Shown here: positions 16,209 to 26,364 of the stretch, one piece after another
Layout: every line of letters begins with the position of its first letter
How positions within the stretch are numbered: position 1 is the first letter of the stretch
Assembly (NCBI GenBank): GCA_031285965.1
Contig: JAITVD010000002.1
Span: 1-64,000, forward strand
DNA: 64,000 nucleotides
Reading direction: 5' to 3'
From: Azoarcus sp.
Lineage (GTDB): Bacteria > Pseudomonadota > Gammaproteobacteria > Burkholderiales > Rhodocyclaceae
The notes under the pieces: model-generated
What the model was told of the DNA's origin: nothing
The model's database searches: none
Seen by the model: the letters and a program-made list of their open reading frames with translations, nothing else
Translations under genes and position numbers: made by a program

Positions 16209-17318
16209 ATGTCAAATCAATTGAAAATTAAAATCGAAGCGGCTGTCAACACCGACAACGATTTCAGCATGGTTCAACTTGTTAGTGAGGCATGGCCGAT
16301 TATCGAGACCTCCTCTCGTTTGCAAAAACTTATCCCAGGACTGCGGCAAATTTTTGGGGATAAAGGTTATAAAAAATTATCTCAGGCAATTTTACGAAAC
16401 GCCTTTCTTATCGAATTAGTGAAAGTTCCGAAAATCGAAACAACAAAATTCAGGCAACGGTGGTATCAACAGCTTGATGATGACCCTCGTGGATGTCCAT
16501 TTGAAGAATGTTTTGAAATAGCATTAGATTTATTAGAGCATTTACCAGAATGGATAAAAAATCCAAGTCATGCAGAAGCTCTTAAACTATCATTTGATTA
16601 TAGTATTCTTCCATATGAAGCTCCGATTGACTATTGTGAACGATTAACAGATAACGGACGAATCCATTCACGAGGAAATCTCATATGGTACTATGATGAA
16701 TTGATTCTTCGCACACTAAAACTAAGAAAATATCTTATAGGGTCTGAGCAGAGTCCAGATGTTAGTTTTTTTAGACAAGTTTTAACGGATAAAATAAAGG
16801 TTAAAACATATCTTACAGACCGTGTTTTAACCGGAGATTATAAAACAAACCGTGAGAAACGATGGGAAACACATCCGTTATCAGTCCATTTTGCCGAACG
16901 TAAAACATGTATGGCAATAGAATACGCTCTAGTAACAGAACTTTGCTGTTTTAAAGGATTCCCCGAAAGTTTTCGCCAACGGCTTCAAGAAGAAGGCATC
17001 TTAGCTCAACATCTCCCTATGGCTTTATGCCCGATTACAGGAGATGCGCTGTCCTATGAGGCATTTCGGAGCGAGCTTTTAAATCCCACTCATGGAAAAT
17101 CAGATTTTCAGGTTGGGCATCGCAATCCTCTTAAGCATGAAGCTATAAACGACCAAGGCTCTGGGCATACTGCGCAAAACATCAGTTGGATTTCTGCTGA
17201 CGGCAATCGCATACAAGGAAGTCTAAGCCTTGATGATGTGAGAATATTGATTCAGCGAATTTCAGATAACTATACTGTACATGGTTGGTGGCCGGAACAT
17301 CGGACGGGCAGAGCGTAG
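16209..17318 (+). CDS. HNH-type restriction endonuclease (putative)
   Basis: CPITGDALSY...SDFQVGHRNPLKHEAINDQGSGHTAQNISWISADGNRIQG HNH-like C-terminus; convergent with an adenine methylase gene. Confidence 0.65.
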   Translation: MSNQLKIKIEAAVNTDNDFSMVQLVSEAWPIIETSSRLQKLIPGLRQIFGDKGYKKLSQAILRNAFLIELVKVPKIETTKFRQRWYQQLDDDPRGCPFEECFEIALDLLEHLPEWIKNPSHAEALKLSFDYSILPYEAPIDYCERLTDNGRIHSRGNLIWYYDELILRTLKLRKYLIGSEQSPDVSFFRQVLTDKIKVKTYLTDRVLTGDYKTNREKRWETHPLSVHFAERKTCMAIEYALVTELCCFKGFPESFRQRLQEEGILAQHLPMALCPITGDALSYEAFRSELLNPTHGKSDFQVGHRNPLKHEAINDQGSGHTAQNISWISADGNRIQGSLSLDDVRILIQRISDNYTVHGWWPEHRTGRA

Positions 17319-17415
17319 CTCACCAAAAACTCAAATCTTTACTGACGTTCGCCGCTAATGCTGCTGCCCGCATCGTTTACAGCATGCACAAAGCCAAGGA
17401 GCTAATCAATCTCTC

Positions 17416-19413
17416 TTATGCACCAACCGCTCGTTTGGCCTCAAGCGATAACTCCTTTGCCTCCATACGGCGTTCAATTGCAGACCGCACAAGTTCAGTA
17501 ATTCTTTCTCTATCTTTCTTTTTTTTAGGGACTGGAATGACAAGTTCATTTATTCTCTCGCCAAGGCTATCAATGATGTCTTGTGTAAATTGCTTGGAGC
17601 GAATTTGTTTTTGTACTGTTGAGCTAGAGAGCAATGCCAAAAGAAGATATGGATTAATGTCAACATCATTCTTGTTAACTCTTATCTTGTATATGTGACT
17701 TTGATATAATATTTTTTTGTCCTGTTCAGTGACAAGCGCACATGTCCCAATAAGATATGTGCCATCCCGAACCATGAAGATGTCTTCCGCCTGAACATCT
17801 TGTTTAGAATTTAATGAATTGTAAATCTCTTCTGAAACACCATGCTTAGGGTCTGCTTTTAATTCCCAATTACTCATATCTGATGTTCTAATAAAAGGTA
17901 TTACCCCTGTACCATAAGCAAGTTTTCCTATTTCATTCCCGGTAGATATGCTCAAAATTCCATTTTTAACTAAATCACCAAACATATAGATATCATGCGT
18001 ACTGTATAACGCATCAATATCTTGTTCTTGTTGTGGGTCATAATACCGTGGGCAGAGAATGTTTGACGATAGTTTTATTTTTTGAATGATAAATCCTAAG
18101 CTAGAATTATGAATTGATTCACCAGCAGTGTATTTCTTAAAATTCACACAAATATCTGGAATGTCGTTATGAGGAATAGTTCGGGCCCTAGAATCCTGAC
18201 CACACCATTTTGCTTCTGCCATGAATATGGTAGAACTTTTAACTGAATCTTGGTTATGTTTTGTTGCCACGAAAAGGCAAGTTTTTGTGTGTGTTCCACC
18301 TTTTCCTGAAGTTTTAAAGAGAGCTTCCGGCATCCCAAGAACAGCATGGATATCTGTGTGAGTCATCAAATAATCAACAACATGCCGATAAGATTTGTTA
18401 GATAACAAACTTTCTGGAACAACCATCCCGAGTCTACCGCCCGGCTTAAGCAAAGAGAGGCAGCGTTCAACAAAGAGCACTTGGGGAGGGACATTTCTTT
18501 GTACTTCACATAAGGGCATAAATCTCCCAGATTTTTTTTCTTTTATCCATTTTTTTGCAAGATCAAAATTTTGTAAAATTTCAGAATTCGCAGCAACGAT
18601 ATGTGCACCAAATGGGGGATTTGTTAAGATTATATCTACTCCGCCTGACGGTAGATGCTTGAGAATACCCCCATTTCCGGTTGTCATGGCGAGACTATCG
18701 CCACAAATAACTTGAGGATGTCCTCCGGTTAACAGTGAAATATGTACTCTAGCTAATTTTGCAAGGTATGCGTCTTTATCGATGCCATAAAAATTTTGTG
18801 ATGATTCTTCTTTTATCTTTAATGGAGATATTTTATTTTTAATATAATACGCACAAACAGAAGTTAGGAATCCACCGGCACCACAAGCAGGGTCAAGAAT
18901 TGTTTCACCAGGTTTAGGATCTAGTGCTGCTACAAGAAGACTTGTTACAGACCTTGGCGTGAAAAATTGTCCAGAATTTCCTTTTGATTCACTTCCTGTA
19001 AATATTTCAAAAGCATCACCAATAGGATCGCTAAGAGCATCCATTATTGAAAAATCAAGTGACTTTATAACATAAGCAAGAGTATTTGGGTCTAAAAGTA
19101 TTTCAGTATTTTTATCATATATATCAGGAAACTCCAATCTGACATTTGTAAATATTGTTCGTATCTTCTTTGCAAGACTGAATTGGTCTGTGTCGATTAA
19201 AAATTCTTTTTCCTCTTCTTTTTCAATGAATAATTTGCAAAAAAAACATTTTAAAACTTCATCCAAGAGAAAGTCGTCCCGCGTAGCTCCCACGAATTGA
19301 CCTGCAAGAAAATTGCGGATGTCTCGGAACACTTCTTTGGGAGTGCGAGCGTTTTTGACCAAAGTAAGCTGCTCTATCAGCATGGCGGATTTCTTCCTCA
19401 CGGCTTGCTCCAA
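17416..19413 (-). CDS. N-6 DNA methylase fused to a specificity (TRD) region
   Basis: SGQFFTPRSVTSLLV, LDPACGAGGFLTSV, IILTNPPFGAHI (HsdM-like); C-terminal HsdS-like TRD (GTGVIPFIRTSDMSNWEL). Start may be TTG 19413 or ATG 19383. Confidence 0.8.
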   Translation of the reverse strand: MEQAVRKKSAMLIEQLTLVKNARTPKEVFRDIRNFLAGQFVGATRDDFLLDEVLKCFFCKLFIEKEEEKEFLIDTDQFSLAKKIRTIFTNVRLEFPDIYDKNTEILLDPNTLAYVIKSLDFSIMDALSDPIGDAFEIFTGSESKGNSGQFFTPRSVTSLLVAALDPKPGETILDPACGAGGFLTSVCAYYIKNKISPLKIKEESSQNFYGIDKDAYLAKLARVHISLLTGGHPQVICGDSLAMTTGNGGILKHLPSGGVDIILTNPPFGAHIVAANSEILQNFDLAKKWIKEKKSGRFMPLCEVQRNVPPQVLFVERCLSLLKPGGRLGMVVPESLLSNKSYRHVVDYLMTHTDIHAVLGMPEALFKTSGKGGTHTKTCLFVATKHNQDSVKSSTIFMAEAKWCGQDSRARTIPHNDIPDICVNFKKYTAGESIHNSSLGFIIQKIKLSSNILCPRYYDPQQEQDIDALYSTHDIYMFGDLVKNGILSISTGNEIGKLAYGTGVIPFIRTSDMSNWELKADPKHGVSEEIYNSLNSKQDVQAEDIFMVRDGTYLIGTCALVTEQDKKILYQSHIYKIRVNKNDVDINPYLLLALLSSSTVQKQIRSKQFTQDIIDSLGERINELVIPVPKKKKDRERITELVRSAIERRMEAKELSLEAKRAVGA

Positions 19414-22747: not shown

Positions 22748-24139
22748 TCAGAATTGCCAAGGAAGAACCAGAAGAATTTTCAGGTCGCGCTCGTCCTGAA
22801 AGAGATTTTTGTAGCCCGTCCAGCTTGGCTGCTGGGTTTTGTTGTCGTAGCAAGTGTAGTGGAGGCTGACGCGCGCGTTTTTCAGGAAACCGCTTGGCAC
22901 GGCATACGCCAAATCCGCCGACCACGCGCTTTCCCGCAAGCCTTCCTCCACATCATGGACGCGCCCTCCCCAGCCATACGCGCCCGAAATCCCGGCGGTG
23001 AAGCCGGAAACGCCCAAAAGGTCATCCAAACGGCGGGAGATGCCTAAAAACACGGCGCTCTCGCGGTGATGGTTCCAGTCGGAACGGTTATCCCACCAAG
23101 GCTCATACGCGCCGTTCGCGCCGCCATATCGGCCAATCAGCCGATAGGCGAAATAACCCGTGTGCTGGGGCTGGTTGTTTGGCGCGCGGGTATGGAGAAA
23201 TTCCGCCCTCAAAACCCAGAGCGCCGGACGCCAAGCCGCAGCCAGATAGTGCTGATGAGCCATATCGCCGCTGTACTGCTCGTTTGCCAAACCCGCGCCT
23301 TTGAGGTCGCCCATCCCATATAGCTGATAGCTGAGATAGATTTTTTCGTCCGATGAACTGTATTTCAGCTTGAGATGGGCGCTTCGCAAAAAATCCCGCG
23401 ATTCGCCATAGGCTGCCTCCAGCGAAAACCGGGACAAAAAACGGAGGCGCGCGCCAAGCGACCAGAGGTCATTGACGCGGGTCTGGCCGTCATTTTTGCG
23501 GAAATGGTAAAGGTCAGAATACCAAGGCGATTTGTACTGGTCTGCCCAGGCAAACGCTATGGCGAGTGCCCCATCCTCCAGCCCCATTTCCATCCCCCGG
23601 TAAGTACCGGGCATGAGCGACCAGTTAACGCCAATCACGCCGGGGCCGGATGGCTGGAAATACCCGAACTTGCCCCAGAACTGGCGGTTTCCCGCAACAT
23701 GCCGCAGTTTCAGGTGGGCGCGATAGAGCGATGTCCCGCTTTTCGCGTCGCGCCGCGACCAGTCCGGCTGCCACGGGTTGTCCCAAGGGAAAAAGCTCAT
23801 TTCGTGGTCGGGACTGGCGCTGCTAGAAAGGTCGCCCGTTGAAAAAAGCCCCAATTCAAAGCCAACAGCATCGCCATAAAAAGGCGTGCTGATGTCGAGG
23901 CTCCCTTGCAAAGTCTGGTGATGAAGGTTATCGACGAAAACGCCTTTTTCAACGTCATAGCGTTTCCGCTGGCGGCTGAAATAGAAAAGATTGCCGGAAA
24001 CCGTTGGCAGCCCGCCCTCTTTTGCCTGCGCGGCAGGCTCTTGCGCCACAGCGGGCGCGGTCTCGTTGGATGCCTGCGCCGCCTGGATATGGAAAAGAAA
24101 GGGCAGCAGGAAACAACAGCCCGATGCCGGAATTCTCAT
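22748..24139 (-). CDS. Outer-membrane porin, OprD/chitoporin-like
   Basis: Signal peptide, beta-barrel alternation, 'LQGSLDISTPFYGDAVGFELGLFS', terminal Phe (LVLPWQF). ATG overlaps the upstream stop as ATGA. Confidence 0.7.
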   Translation of the reverse strand: MRIPASGCCFLLPFLFHIQAAQASNETAPAVAQEPAAQAKEGGLPTVSGNLFYFSRQRKRYDVEKGVFVDNLHHQTLQGSLDISTPFYGDAVGFELGLFSTGDLSSSASPDHEMSFFPWDNPWQPDWSRRDAKSGTSLYRAHLKLRHVAGNRQFWGKFGYFQPSGPGVIGVNWSLMPGTYRGMEMGLEDGALAIAFAWADQYKSPWYSDLYHFRKNDGQTRVNDLWSLGARLRFLSRFSLEAAYGESRDFLRSAHLKLKYSSSDEKIYLSYQLYGMGDLKGAGLANEQYSGDMAHQHYLAAAWRPALWVLRAEFLHTRAPNNQPQHTGYFAYRLIGRYGGANGAYEPWWDNRSDWNHHRESAVFLGISRRLDDLLGVSGFTAGISGAYGWGGRVHDVEEGLRESAWSADLAYAVPSGFLKNARVSLHYTCYDNKTQQPSWTGYKNLFQDERDLKILLVLPWQF

Positions 24140-26364
24140 CCAGCCCATCCTTCCTCATTGCCGTTCATGCTAAACACGTATTTCAGAAGGTTTTCCCCCG
24201 ACACGGGCGGGCTATAGAAATAGCCTTGGAAAACGTGGCAGCCCAGCGAGCGGAGCATGTAGATCTGCTCCCTGTTTTCCACATACTCGACGACGATCTT
24301 CACGTCCAGCGAACGGCACAGATCGACGATGGTGCTGACGATTTCGACGCAGACTTTGTTTGAGGCAATGTCCTTGGAGAGCGCCTTGTCGATTTTCAGG
24401 ACATCGACCGGAAAATATTTGAGATAAACCAGCGAGCTATGCCCCATTCCAAAGTCATCCATCGAAATGACGAATTTCTTTTCGCTGAGTTCTTTCAGCA
24501 CGAGGTTATGCGGGCTGTCCGGGTCAAGGGCAATGGATTCGGTGACTTCAAGCCCAATCATGTGATGCGGCAAACCGTGGTTCGCCAAACAAGCCACTAC
24601 TTTATCCGCCAAGGTTTCGTCGCTGAGTTGCTGGATGGAGACGTTGACCGAAGTCTTGAAATGCTCGTCGATGCCCGCGTCCCGCCAGCGCACCCGCTCG
24701 GCGCATGCCTCGTCCAATACCCAGAGGCCAAGGGGGTGCATGAATCCGGCATCCTCGGCAATCGCCACCATGACCGGAGCGGGAATCAGCCCATAGAAAG
24801 GATGCCGCCAGCGCACCAGCGCCTCCGCGCCAATGACCGTATTGCTTTCGCAATCGAACTGCGGCTGGTATTCGAGATAAAGGCCGTTGCCGGTTTTCAG
24901 GGCGCGCTCCAGATCATGCGCGAGCGCAAGGGCGAGCGAGCTGACTTCATCGCCCCGGTCGAAGCATTTCTTGCCTGACGGCCCCACCGTGTTGGCGCAG
25001 GCAACTTCCACGAGCGCGCTCATGGTTCTTTTCTGCCTGTCCGCTTTTTCGCGGTCGGAAACGCGGACAAAAGGGATGTAGATCAGGGTTCCCAGCACGA
25101 GGTTCACGGCTTGCAGCAGAGCGCCCGAAAACGCGCCGGTGGAAAAATAGCCCCCAATAATCGGCGGCGTCGTCCAGCCCAGTTCCCGCACAGGCAGGGG
25201 AACAAGCCCGGAAGACACCGCCACATAGCTGGTTCCGGTCAGGACGAGCGGAACCAGCACGAAAGGCAGGAAAAAAATGGGATTCAGAATGACGGGCAGG
25301 CCAAAAACCAGAATTTCATTGATGTTGAACACGCCCGGCACGAGGGAAATTTTCGCCAGTCTCCGGCTGCCCCGGTTCCGGCTGGCGATAAACAGCGCGG
25401 CAAGCAAACAGATGGACGCGCCAGCGCCGCCCATGAACACGAAGGTATCCAAAAAATTCTTGGTAACGATATAGGGCGGCTGCAAATTCATCGCCATCGC
25501 CTGCTCGTTGGCAAGCTGCGCCGCCCCGAACAAATCCCGGGTCAGGGGATCGAGCGTGTTGGAGCCGTGGATGCCGAAGAACCAGAAAACATCAACGAAA
25601 AAGACATAGGGGATGCTCTTTTGCAACATCCCCCAATCTCCCTCGAACTGGAAAGGCCAGAGCAGCGCGTCATGCACGACCTGATGGATCGACGCGCCGA
25701 ACACCGTCAGAAAAAAGGCGTAAAAGGCGGCGAACAGGCAAACGGTGAGGATGCCCGGAATCAGCACGACGAAGGCTTGCTGGATCGAAGCATCCACGCC
25801 TTCCGAATAAACCAGCATGGACAGCCGCCGGATGCGCGCCAGACGGATGAAAATCCGGCTGGCGGCAATAGCCACGAGGATGCTGACGAACAGCCCCGGC
25901 ACGCCCATGTATTTCAGAATTCCGCCCTCTTCCCCTGAAGGCAAAATCACCATCAGGCAGACAAACGACATCAGGGCGGTCACGAGCGGGCTAACAGGCT
26001 TGTCCGCGTGCTGGCGATTCTCCAGAACGGCAAGGTGGTAGCTTGTGCCCACCAGCATCGGTATCGAGAGCACCCCGAACGTGCCTTGCCAGATAATCAG
26101 CCCAAGCTGGTTCCAGTTTTCCCCGAAGGCTTCCTTCATGAAGTCCTGATAACCGGGCAGGGGCAGATTATTGAAAAGAATGCTGAGCGCCCCTGCCGTG
26201 ACCAGCGGCAGACAAAACAGAAAACCGTTGCGGATGGCCTGTATCGTCGGGAACCAAGCCCAGTCAGGCACGGTCAGCGCGTTGAAACGGGCAAACATCC
26301 AAGCGCAAAAGGCGCTGCACGAGTCCCTGCCCGCCGTTGCCTCTGTCTGCTCGTCTCCGTTCAT
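24136..26364 (-). CDS. Fusion protein: PTS EIIC (lactose/cellobiose type) + EAL domain
   Basis: N-terminus: WFFGIHGSNTL, FNINEILVFGLPVILNP. C-terminus: GAEALVRWRHP, NVSIQQL, LEVTES, SMDDFGMGHSSL, KIDK, VEYVENREQ, QGYFYSPPV. Confidence 0.9.
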   Translation of the reverse strand: MNGDEQTEATAGRDSCSAFCAWMFARFNALTVPDWAWFPTIQAIRNGFLFCLPLVTAGALSILFNNLPLPGYQDFMKEAFGENWNQLGLIIWQGTFGVLSIPMLVGTSYHLAVLENRQHADKPVSPLVTALMSFVCLMVILPSGEEGGILKYMGVPGLFVSILVAIAASRIFIRLARIRRLSMLVYSEGVDASIQQAFVVLIPGILTVCLFAAFYAFFLTVFGASIHQVVHDALLWPFQFEGDWGMLQKSIPYVFFVDVFWFFGIHGSNTLDPLTRDLFGAAQLANEQAMAMNLQPPYIVTKNFLDTFVFMGGAGASICLLAALFIASRNRGSRRLAKISLVPGVFNINEILVFGLPVILNPIFFLPFVLVPLVLTGTSYVAVSSGLVPLPVRELGWTTPPIIGGYFSTGAFSGALLQAVNLVLGTLIYIPFVRVSDREKADRQKRTMSALVEVACANTVGPSGKKCFDRGDEVSSLALALAHDLERALKTGNGLYLEYQPQFDCESNTVIGAEALVRWRHPFYGLIPAPVMVAIAEDAGFMHPLGLWVLDEACAERVRWRDAGIDEHFKTSVNVSIQQLSDETLADKVVACLANHGLPHHMIGLEVTESIALDPDSPHNLVLKELSEKKFVISMDDFGMGHSSLVYLKYFPVDVLKIDKALSKDIASNKVCVEIVSTIVDLCRSLDVKIVVEYVENREQIYMLRSLGCHVFQGYFYSPPVSGENLLKYVFSMNGNEEGWAG

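Follow-up and report, generated by a model that had tools for sequence, protein, structure and literature searches.

An Azoarcus sp. gene that fuses a PTS EIIC permease domain to an EAL phosphodiesterase domain is coupled to the gene of a chitoporin-like porin, and we consider it probable (about 0.58) that the pair specifies a device for sensing sugars that reaches across both membranes, in which the EIIC domain would be a sugar receptor controlling c-di-GMP hydrolysis. The pair lies on the reverse strand of a 64,000-nucleotide stretch of DNA, hereafter called the window (Table 1). The fusion architecture as such is already known; what is new is that an orphan EIIC is coupled to a porin.

Two complete domains in one protein

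An earlier note, made from the sequence alone, had described the 742-residue product as a lactose/cellobiose-type permease joined to an EAL domain, and profile searches bear this out by showing both domains to be complete. Pfam matched PTS_EIIC at 2e-31 with all 319 model positions covered, and EAL at 3e-62 over model positions 3-236 of 236, i.e., the full fold. The EIIC part also passes the NCBIfam lacE subfamily model TIGR00410 (280.9 bits, cut-off 236), and it stays below the cut-off of every substrate-specific NCBIfam equivalog. Its sole solved sequence relative is bcChbC, the N,N'-diacetylchitobiose EIIC (PDB 3qnq, E 1.4e-62). Residues H266, E350, and W397 align with H250, E334, and W382 of bcChbC, presumably sugar contacts in that protein, and we assume the same role for them here; E350 and W397 are invariant in the homologue alignment, and H266 is conserved in at least 90%. 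With bcChbC, E. coli ChbC, and CelB, the window's EIIC shares the fold and the GIHG, FNINE, and WTTP motifs, but it differs from them in being fused to an EAL domain and in belonging to a genome that holds no EIIB or EIIA partner.

Table 1. Features of the EIIC-EAL/porin gene pair in the window.
Feature	Position	Strand	Description
Chitoporin-like OprD-family porin	22748..24148	-	466 aa from first ATG; signal-peptide-like N-terminus
ATGA overlap of porin start (ATG) with EIIC-EAL stop (TGA)	24136..24139	-	Sequence
EIIC-EAL fusion gene	24136..26364	-	742 aa; ORF call, Pfam, and NCBIfam
EAL phosphodiesterase domain with DFGMGHSSL loop	24205..24915	-	Residues 484-720; ligand residues kept
Predicted continuous helix 412-456, from last membrane helix towards EAL domain	24997..25131	-	AlphaFold2 model
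PTS EIIC domain	25249..26232	-	Residues 45-372 by Pfam; family homology to ~444

In the AlphaFold2 model of the fusion (mean pLDDT 85), the long helix leaving the membrane is followed by a loop and then by a helix that enters the EAL barrel. In Foldseek, the structures matched by the EAL half were BifA, MorA, and MucR (target TM 0.91-0.93). The EIIC half matched 3qnq at a target TM of 0.48-0.50 and an rmsd of 11, which means that its parts are placed otherwise than in that crystal. Against the viral structure library, no match reached E <= 0.001. A chance or degenerate fusion was ruled out because two full-length domains share one frame, the arrangement is conserved across phyla, and dN/dS of the fusion is ~0.14 between two close relatives.

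The EAL domain is intact and the most constrained part

The earlier note had judged the key residues of the EAL domain to be retained. Aligned with 49 homologues, none of the ligands turned out to be lost: E514, N574, E606, E609 (the loop glutamate), D636, D637, K657, E693, and Q713 are invariant. With its catalytic residues all kept, the domain is predicted to hydrolyse c-di-GMP. Comparison of two relatives (L018 and L022) gave dN/dS values of 0.17 for the EIIC part, 0.10 for the EAL part, and 0.13 for the porin; purifying selection is acting on both halves of the fusion and on the porin, most strongly on the EAL part.

The same note had pointed to a change from the usual DFGTGYSSL to DFGMGHSSL. 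The change is present but not peculiar to the window's protein. Because the MDDFGMGH pattern had been used in part to gather the first locus set, in which all 75 near-full-length members, the window's included, carry the pattern, we took a search with the EIIC part only as the less biased check. Among its 11 readable proteins, including the window's, methionine occupies the respective place in nine and histidine in ten; five other EAL proteins of the window's genome carry DFG[TS]G[YL]. DFGMGH as a defect of this one protein is ruled out, since it is typical across the EIIC-EAL family. More broadly, DFG[MTA]G[HY] in place of DFGTGY appears to be a lineage mark of EIIC-EAL proteins (e.g., L099, L100, L102, L106, and L109).

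The state of the EAL domain bears on the direction of coupling, which the anatomy of the protein leaves unfixed. EAL domains are able to serve as c-di-GMP receptors, as in LapD and FimX, and the domain might bind or hydrolyse c-di-GMP and thereby gate the EIIC channel, putting sugar entry under the control of c-di-GMP. We regard this reversal as decidedly unlikely, considering that, unlike a degenerate receptor-type EAL, the domain has kept its catalytic residues and is the segment under the strongest constraint (0.10), and that a search for GH18, GH20, and GH1 found no user of an imported sugar.

A chitoporin-like porin overlaps the fusion gene

The Pfam OprD match to the product of the second gene is weak (1.1e-7), and its sequence relatives in the PDB are chitoporins only, the best being 7vu2 (E 2.9e-69, residues 46-461). 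The homology to the chitoporin ChiP (PDB 7vtz, 7vu0-7vu3) extends over nearly the whole barrel, with the WWDNRSD and FQDE segments conserved. Since the protein reached 320.4 bits against the NCBIfam ChiP equivalog, for which the cut-off is 750, we call it chitoporin-like rather than ChiP. It differs from ChiP in this score as well as in its linkage to a signalling gene and in its occurrence in genomes without GH18 or GH20.

The ATGA overlap of the two genes described in the earlier note holds for an in-frame second ATG at 24139 and not for the first porin ATG, at 24148, which gives a 13-nt overlap with the EIIC-EAL gene. Judging from five relatives in which the porin starts at the same ATGA (L009, L010, L011, L014, and L015), the ATG at 24139 is the likely start, yielding a porin of 463 residues. 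In the window, Rfam found a single tRNA and nothing else, the promoter scan came out empty, and the terminator-like sites were about as many as chance would give.

The pair is conserved in its clade

In the tree, the window's protein groups with records named Betaproteobacteria, Azoarcus, and Zoogloeaceae (SH-aLRT 100%), in a clade separate from the EIIC-EAL proteins of Azospira, Burkholderia, and Rubrivivax; tree row L109 is a different EAL protein and was excluded from this reading. To go by their names, the isolate codes of the clade look like termite-gut bins. A locus labelled Campylobacterota (L024:5374-9072) holds the pair inside this betaproteobacterial clade, with 61% identity to the window's protein, which suggests either that the genes were transferred or that the record is misassigned.

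The porin gene comes next downstream, on the same strand, in 19 of the 20 usable clade loci (the window, L009-L019, L021-L024, L020, which a contig end cuts, L104, and L106); at L101, an NADH-dehydrogenase-type gene takes its place. Beyond the pair, the genes vary from one group of loci to another; the pair has therefore been kept in several neighbourhoods. Among 150 sampled family genomes, an EIIC homologue occurs in 12, in frames of at least 687 residues in 11 of them and cut at a contig end in one, and the porin occurs in six, every one of which has an EIIC homologue. If the two genes were independent, the chance of this would be ~6e-8 (12 choose 6 over 150 choose 6), a figure inflated by the relatedness of the genomes. 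In one genome (G177), the EIIC gene lies at the end of one contig and the porin gene at the end of another, as would be expected if the assembly had broken between them. The pair is thus conserved as a unit, so that neither of the two refuting conditions named in the earlier note, loss of the EAL ligands and lack of conservation of the pair, held. The porin was absent from the EIIC-EAL loci examined outside the clade; together with L101, this means that it is not essential to the EIIC-EAL architecture.

Several loci place further c-di-GMP genes beside the pair. Throughout one subclade (L015-L019, L022, and L023; seven of seven), the porin is followed on the same strand by a diguanylate cyclase gene (L015:9633-11570) whose product has one CLQCH c-type-heme motif and an intact RxxD-x5-GGEEF; in L015, a HAMP domain also passes the Pfam cut-off. 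Directly beyond the porin of L110, on the opposite strand, a CHASE8-GGDEF gene stands next to a YfiR-like (DUF4154) gene (L110:5689-7612, minus strand), resembling the YfiN/YfiR c-di-GMP system, and L024 has a PAS-GGDEF-EAL gene near the pair. No c-di-GMP gene adjoins the pair in the window. All five other EAL proteins of the window's genome that we scanned also have GGDEF domains.

At 16209-19413, the window also holds a gene for a 665-residue protein with an N6 DNA methylase and a type I specificity domain, beside a 369-residue ORF that by eye is a putative HNH-type nuclease; the region is possibly a restriction-modification system.

PTS partners and sugar catabolism

A lactose-type EIIC requires EIIB and EIIA for sugar phosphorylation. 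The earlier note had seen neither adjoining the fusion gene, and the absence extends to the whole genome (97.8% complete, 90 contigs, not closed), which encodes one EIIC together with EI and HPr and gave no match to PF02302 (EIIB) or PF02255 (lactose-type EIIA). PF02302 was likewise without a match in the 17 clade genomes reached via L009-L025, in the 11 EIIC-bearing family genomes other than the window's, and in the Smac51, Azospira, Duganella, Neptunomonas, and Formimonas genomes. The same search returned 31 matches in a C. difficile genome, and some EIIC-EAL carriers (C. difficile and other Clostridia) do carry many EIIBs. In the window's lineage, the EIIC is therefore not a lactose-type phosphorylating permease, and as judged from gene content, lactose-type phosphorylating transport is effectively ruled out for the EIIB-less genomes.

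This absence weighs on two other explanations. The partners might be encoded in sequence missing from the assembly or come from another EII class, the protein then being an ordinary PTS permease with an added EAL domain; the assembly is incomplete as stated, and the partner search covered PF02302 and PF02255. That EIIB is missing from 17 clade and 11 family genomes alike, while the same model matched control genomes and other EIIC-EAL carriers, makes this hardly probable at all. A 2022 review counts PTS_EIIC among the c-di-GMP input domains, as a phosphoreceiver (PMC8846402), and following this classification, the fusion protein would sense the phosphorylation state of the PTS, of which EI and HPr are indeed encoded. 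An EIIC can be reached through EIIB only, however, and PF02302 EIIB is missing from the genome and its relatives, as is lactose-type EIIA from the genome. The EIIB-less genomes thus speak against such a role in the window's lineage; we consider it very improbable.

As the earlier note had stated, no sugar-catabolic gene adjoins the pair: by Pfam, its neighbours encode a Na+/H+ antiporter, a D-alanyl-D-alanine carboxypeptidase, and a malic enzyme-phosphotransacetylase fusion. GH18, GH20, and GH1 were found in none of 21 genomes, whereas control genomes gave matches, which argues against feeding; as the search covered these three families, the sugar might be catabolised by another route, e.g., via GH3, GH94, GH4, or sugar kinases. 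Uptake uncoupled from phosphorylation is the alternative that we call simply unlikely. The EIIC domain would then be a facilitator admitting the unphosphorylated disaccharide as food, with the EAL domain reporting on or adjusting to sugar flux. The EIIC fold and presumed sugar-contact residues are intact, and uptake pathways typically have a porin of their own, E. coli co-regulating its chitoporin with its chb uptake genes (PMC4098024). Neither the lack of GH18, GH20, and GH1 and of an adjoining catabolic gene nor the confinement of the EIIC homologues in the searched family genomes to fusion-length frames, except for the one cut by a contig end, fits this explanation.

A probable sugar receptor setting c-di-GMP

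The earlier note had proposed the permease as a membrane sugar sensor. This role is now better supported than that of a transporter, given the lack of EIIB, lactose-type EIIA, and GH18, GH20, or GH1; the rest of the proposal, namely the ligand, phosphodiesterase activity, direction of the response, coupling of the domains, passage through the porin, and downstream behaviour, we infer as follows. The porin would admit short sugar chains through the outer membrane, most likely chitobiose or other chito-oligosaccharides and next cello-oligosaccharides; the co-regulation of chitoporin and chb genes in E. coli makes chitosugars the leading guess. In the inner membrane, the EIIC half would bind the disaccharide but, with lactose-type EIIB and EIIA missing from the genome, would leave it unphosphorylated. 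A conformational change on binding might then travel through the long exit helix and reach the cytoplasmic EAL domain, and the altered rate of c-di-GMP hydrolysis would shift the balance between attached and motile life. The strictest form of this sensor reading, in which the oligosaccharide is admitted solely to set c-di-GMP, the porin is dedicated to signalling, and the EIIC acts as a receptor without PTS phosphorylation, we put forward tentatively, as somewhat short of an even chance.

Relation to known systems

EIIC-EAL fusions with the same domains in the same order occur in Clostridia (including Clostridioides difficile), Burkholderia, Rubrivivax, Azospira, Synergistaceae, and others. 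Those outside the clade are 29-42% identical to the window's protein and alignable with it end to end, but none of their loci that we examined carries the porin, and several carriers, such as C. difficile, have many EIIBs. A C. difficile c-di-GMP inventory by Bordeleau from 2011 reportedly lists EIIC-EAL proteins. That such fusions might already stand in databases, as the earlier note had supposed, is confirmed, and they also appear in the 2022 census (PMC8846402). A functional study of them was not found in the literature searched, from which subscription journals were mostly absent.

In Vibrio cholerae, as reported by way of the review, EIIA-Glc controls the c-di-GMP phosphodiesterase PdeS in response to sugar (PMC6877527, via PMC8846402), a PTS-derived component thus controlling a phosphodiesterase, as we propose for the window's protein. 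As described there, a separate soluble EIIA acts via phosphorylation, whereas in the window, a membrane EIIC is fused to its output and lactose-type phosphorylation is impossible. UhpC and CbrA are transporter-derived sensors that likewise reuse a transporter fold as sensor input and differ in transporter family and output; we know of none of this type paired with a dedicated outer-membrane porin.

To our knowledge, the input signals of most c-di-GMP enzymes are not known. Where the EIIC-EAL protein is kept in EIIB-less genomes, lactose-type phosphorylation cannot be the signal, and the co-encoded chitoporin-like pore narrows the candidate ligands to a short list, which makes a sugar-to-c-di-GMP receptor testable. 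If the porin serves the sensor rather than nutrition, this would be a new role for porins.
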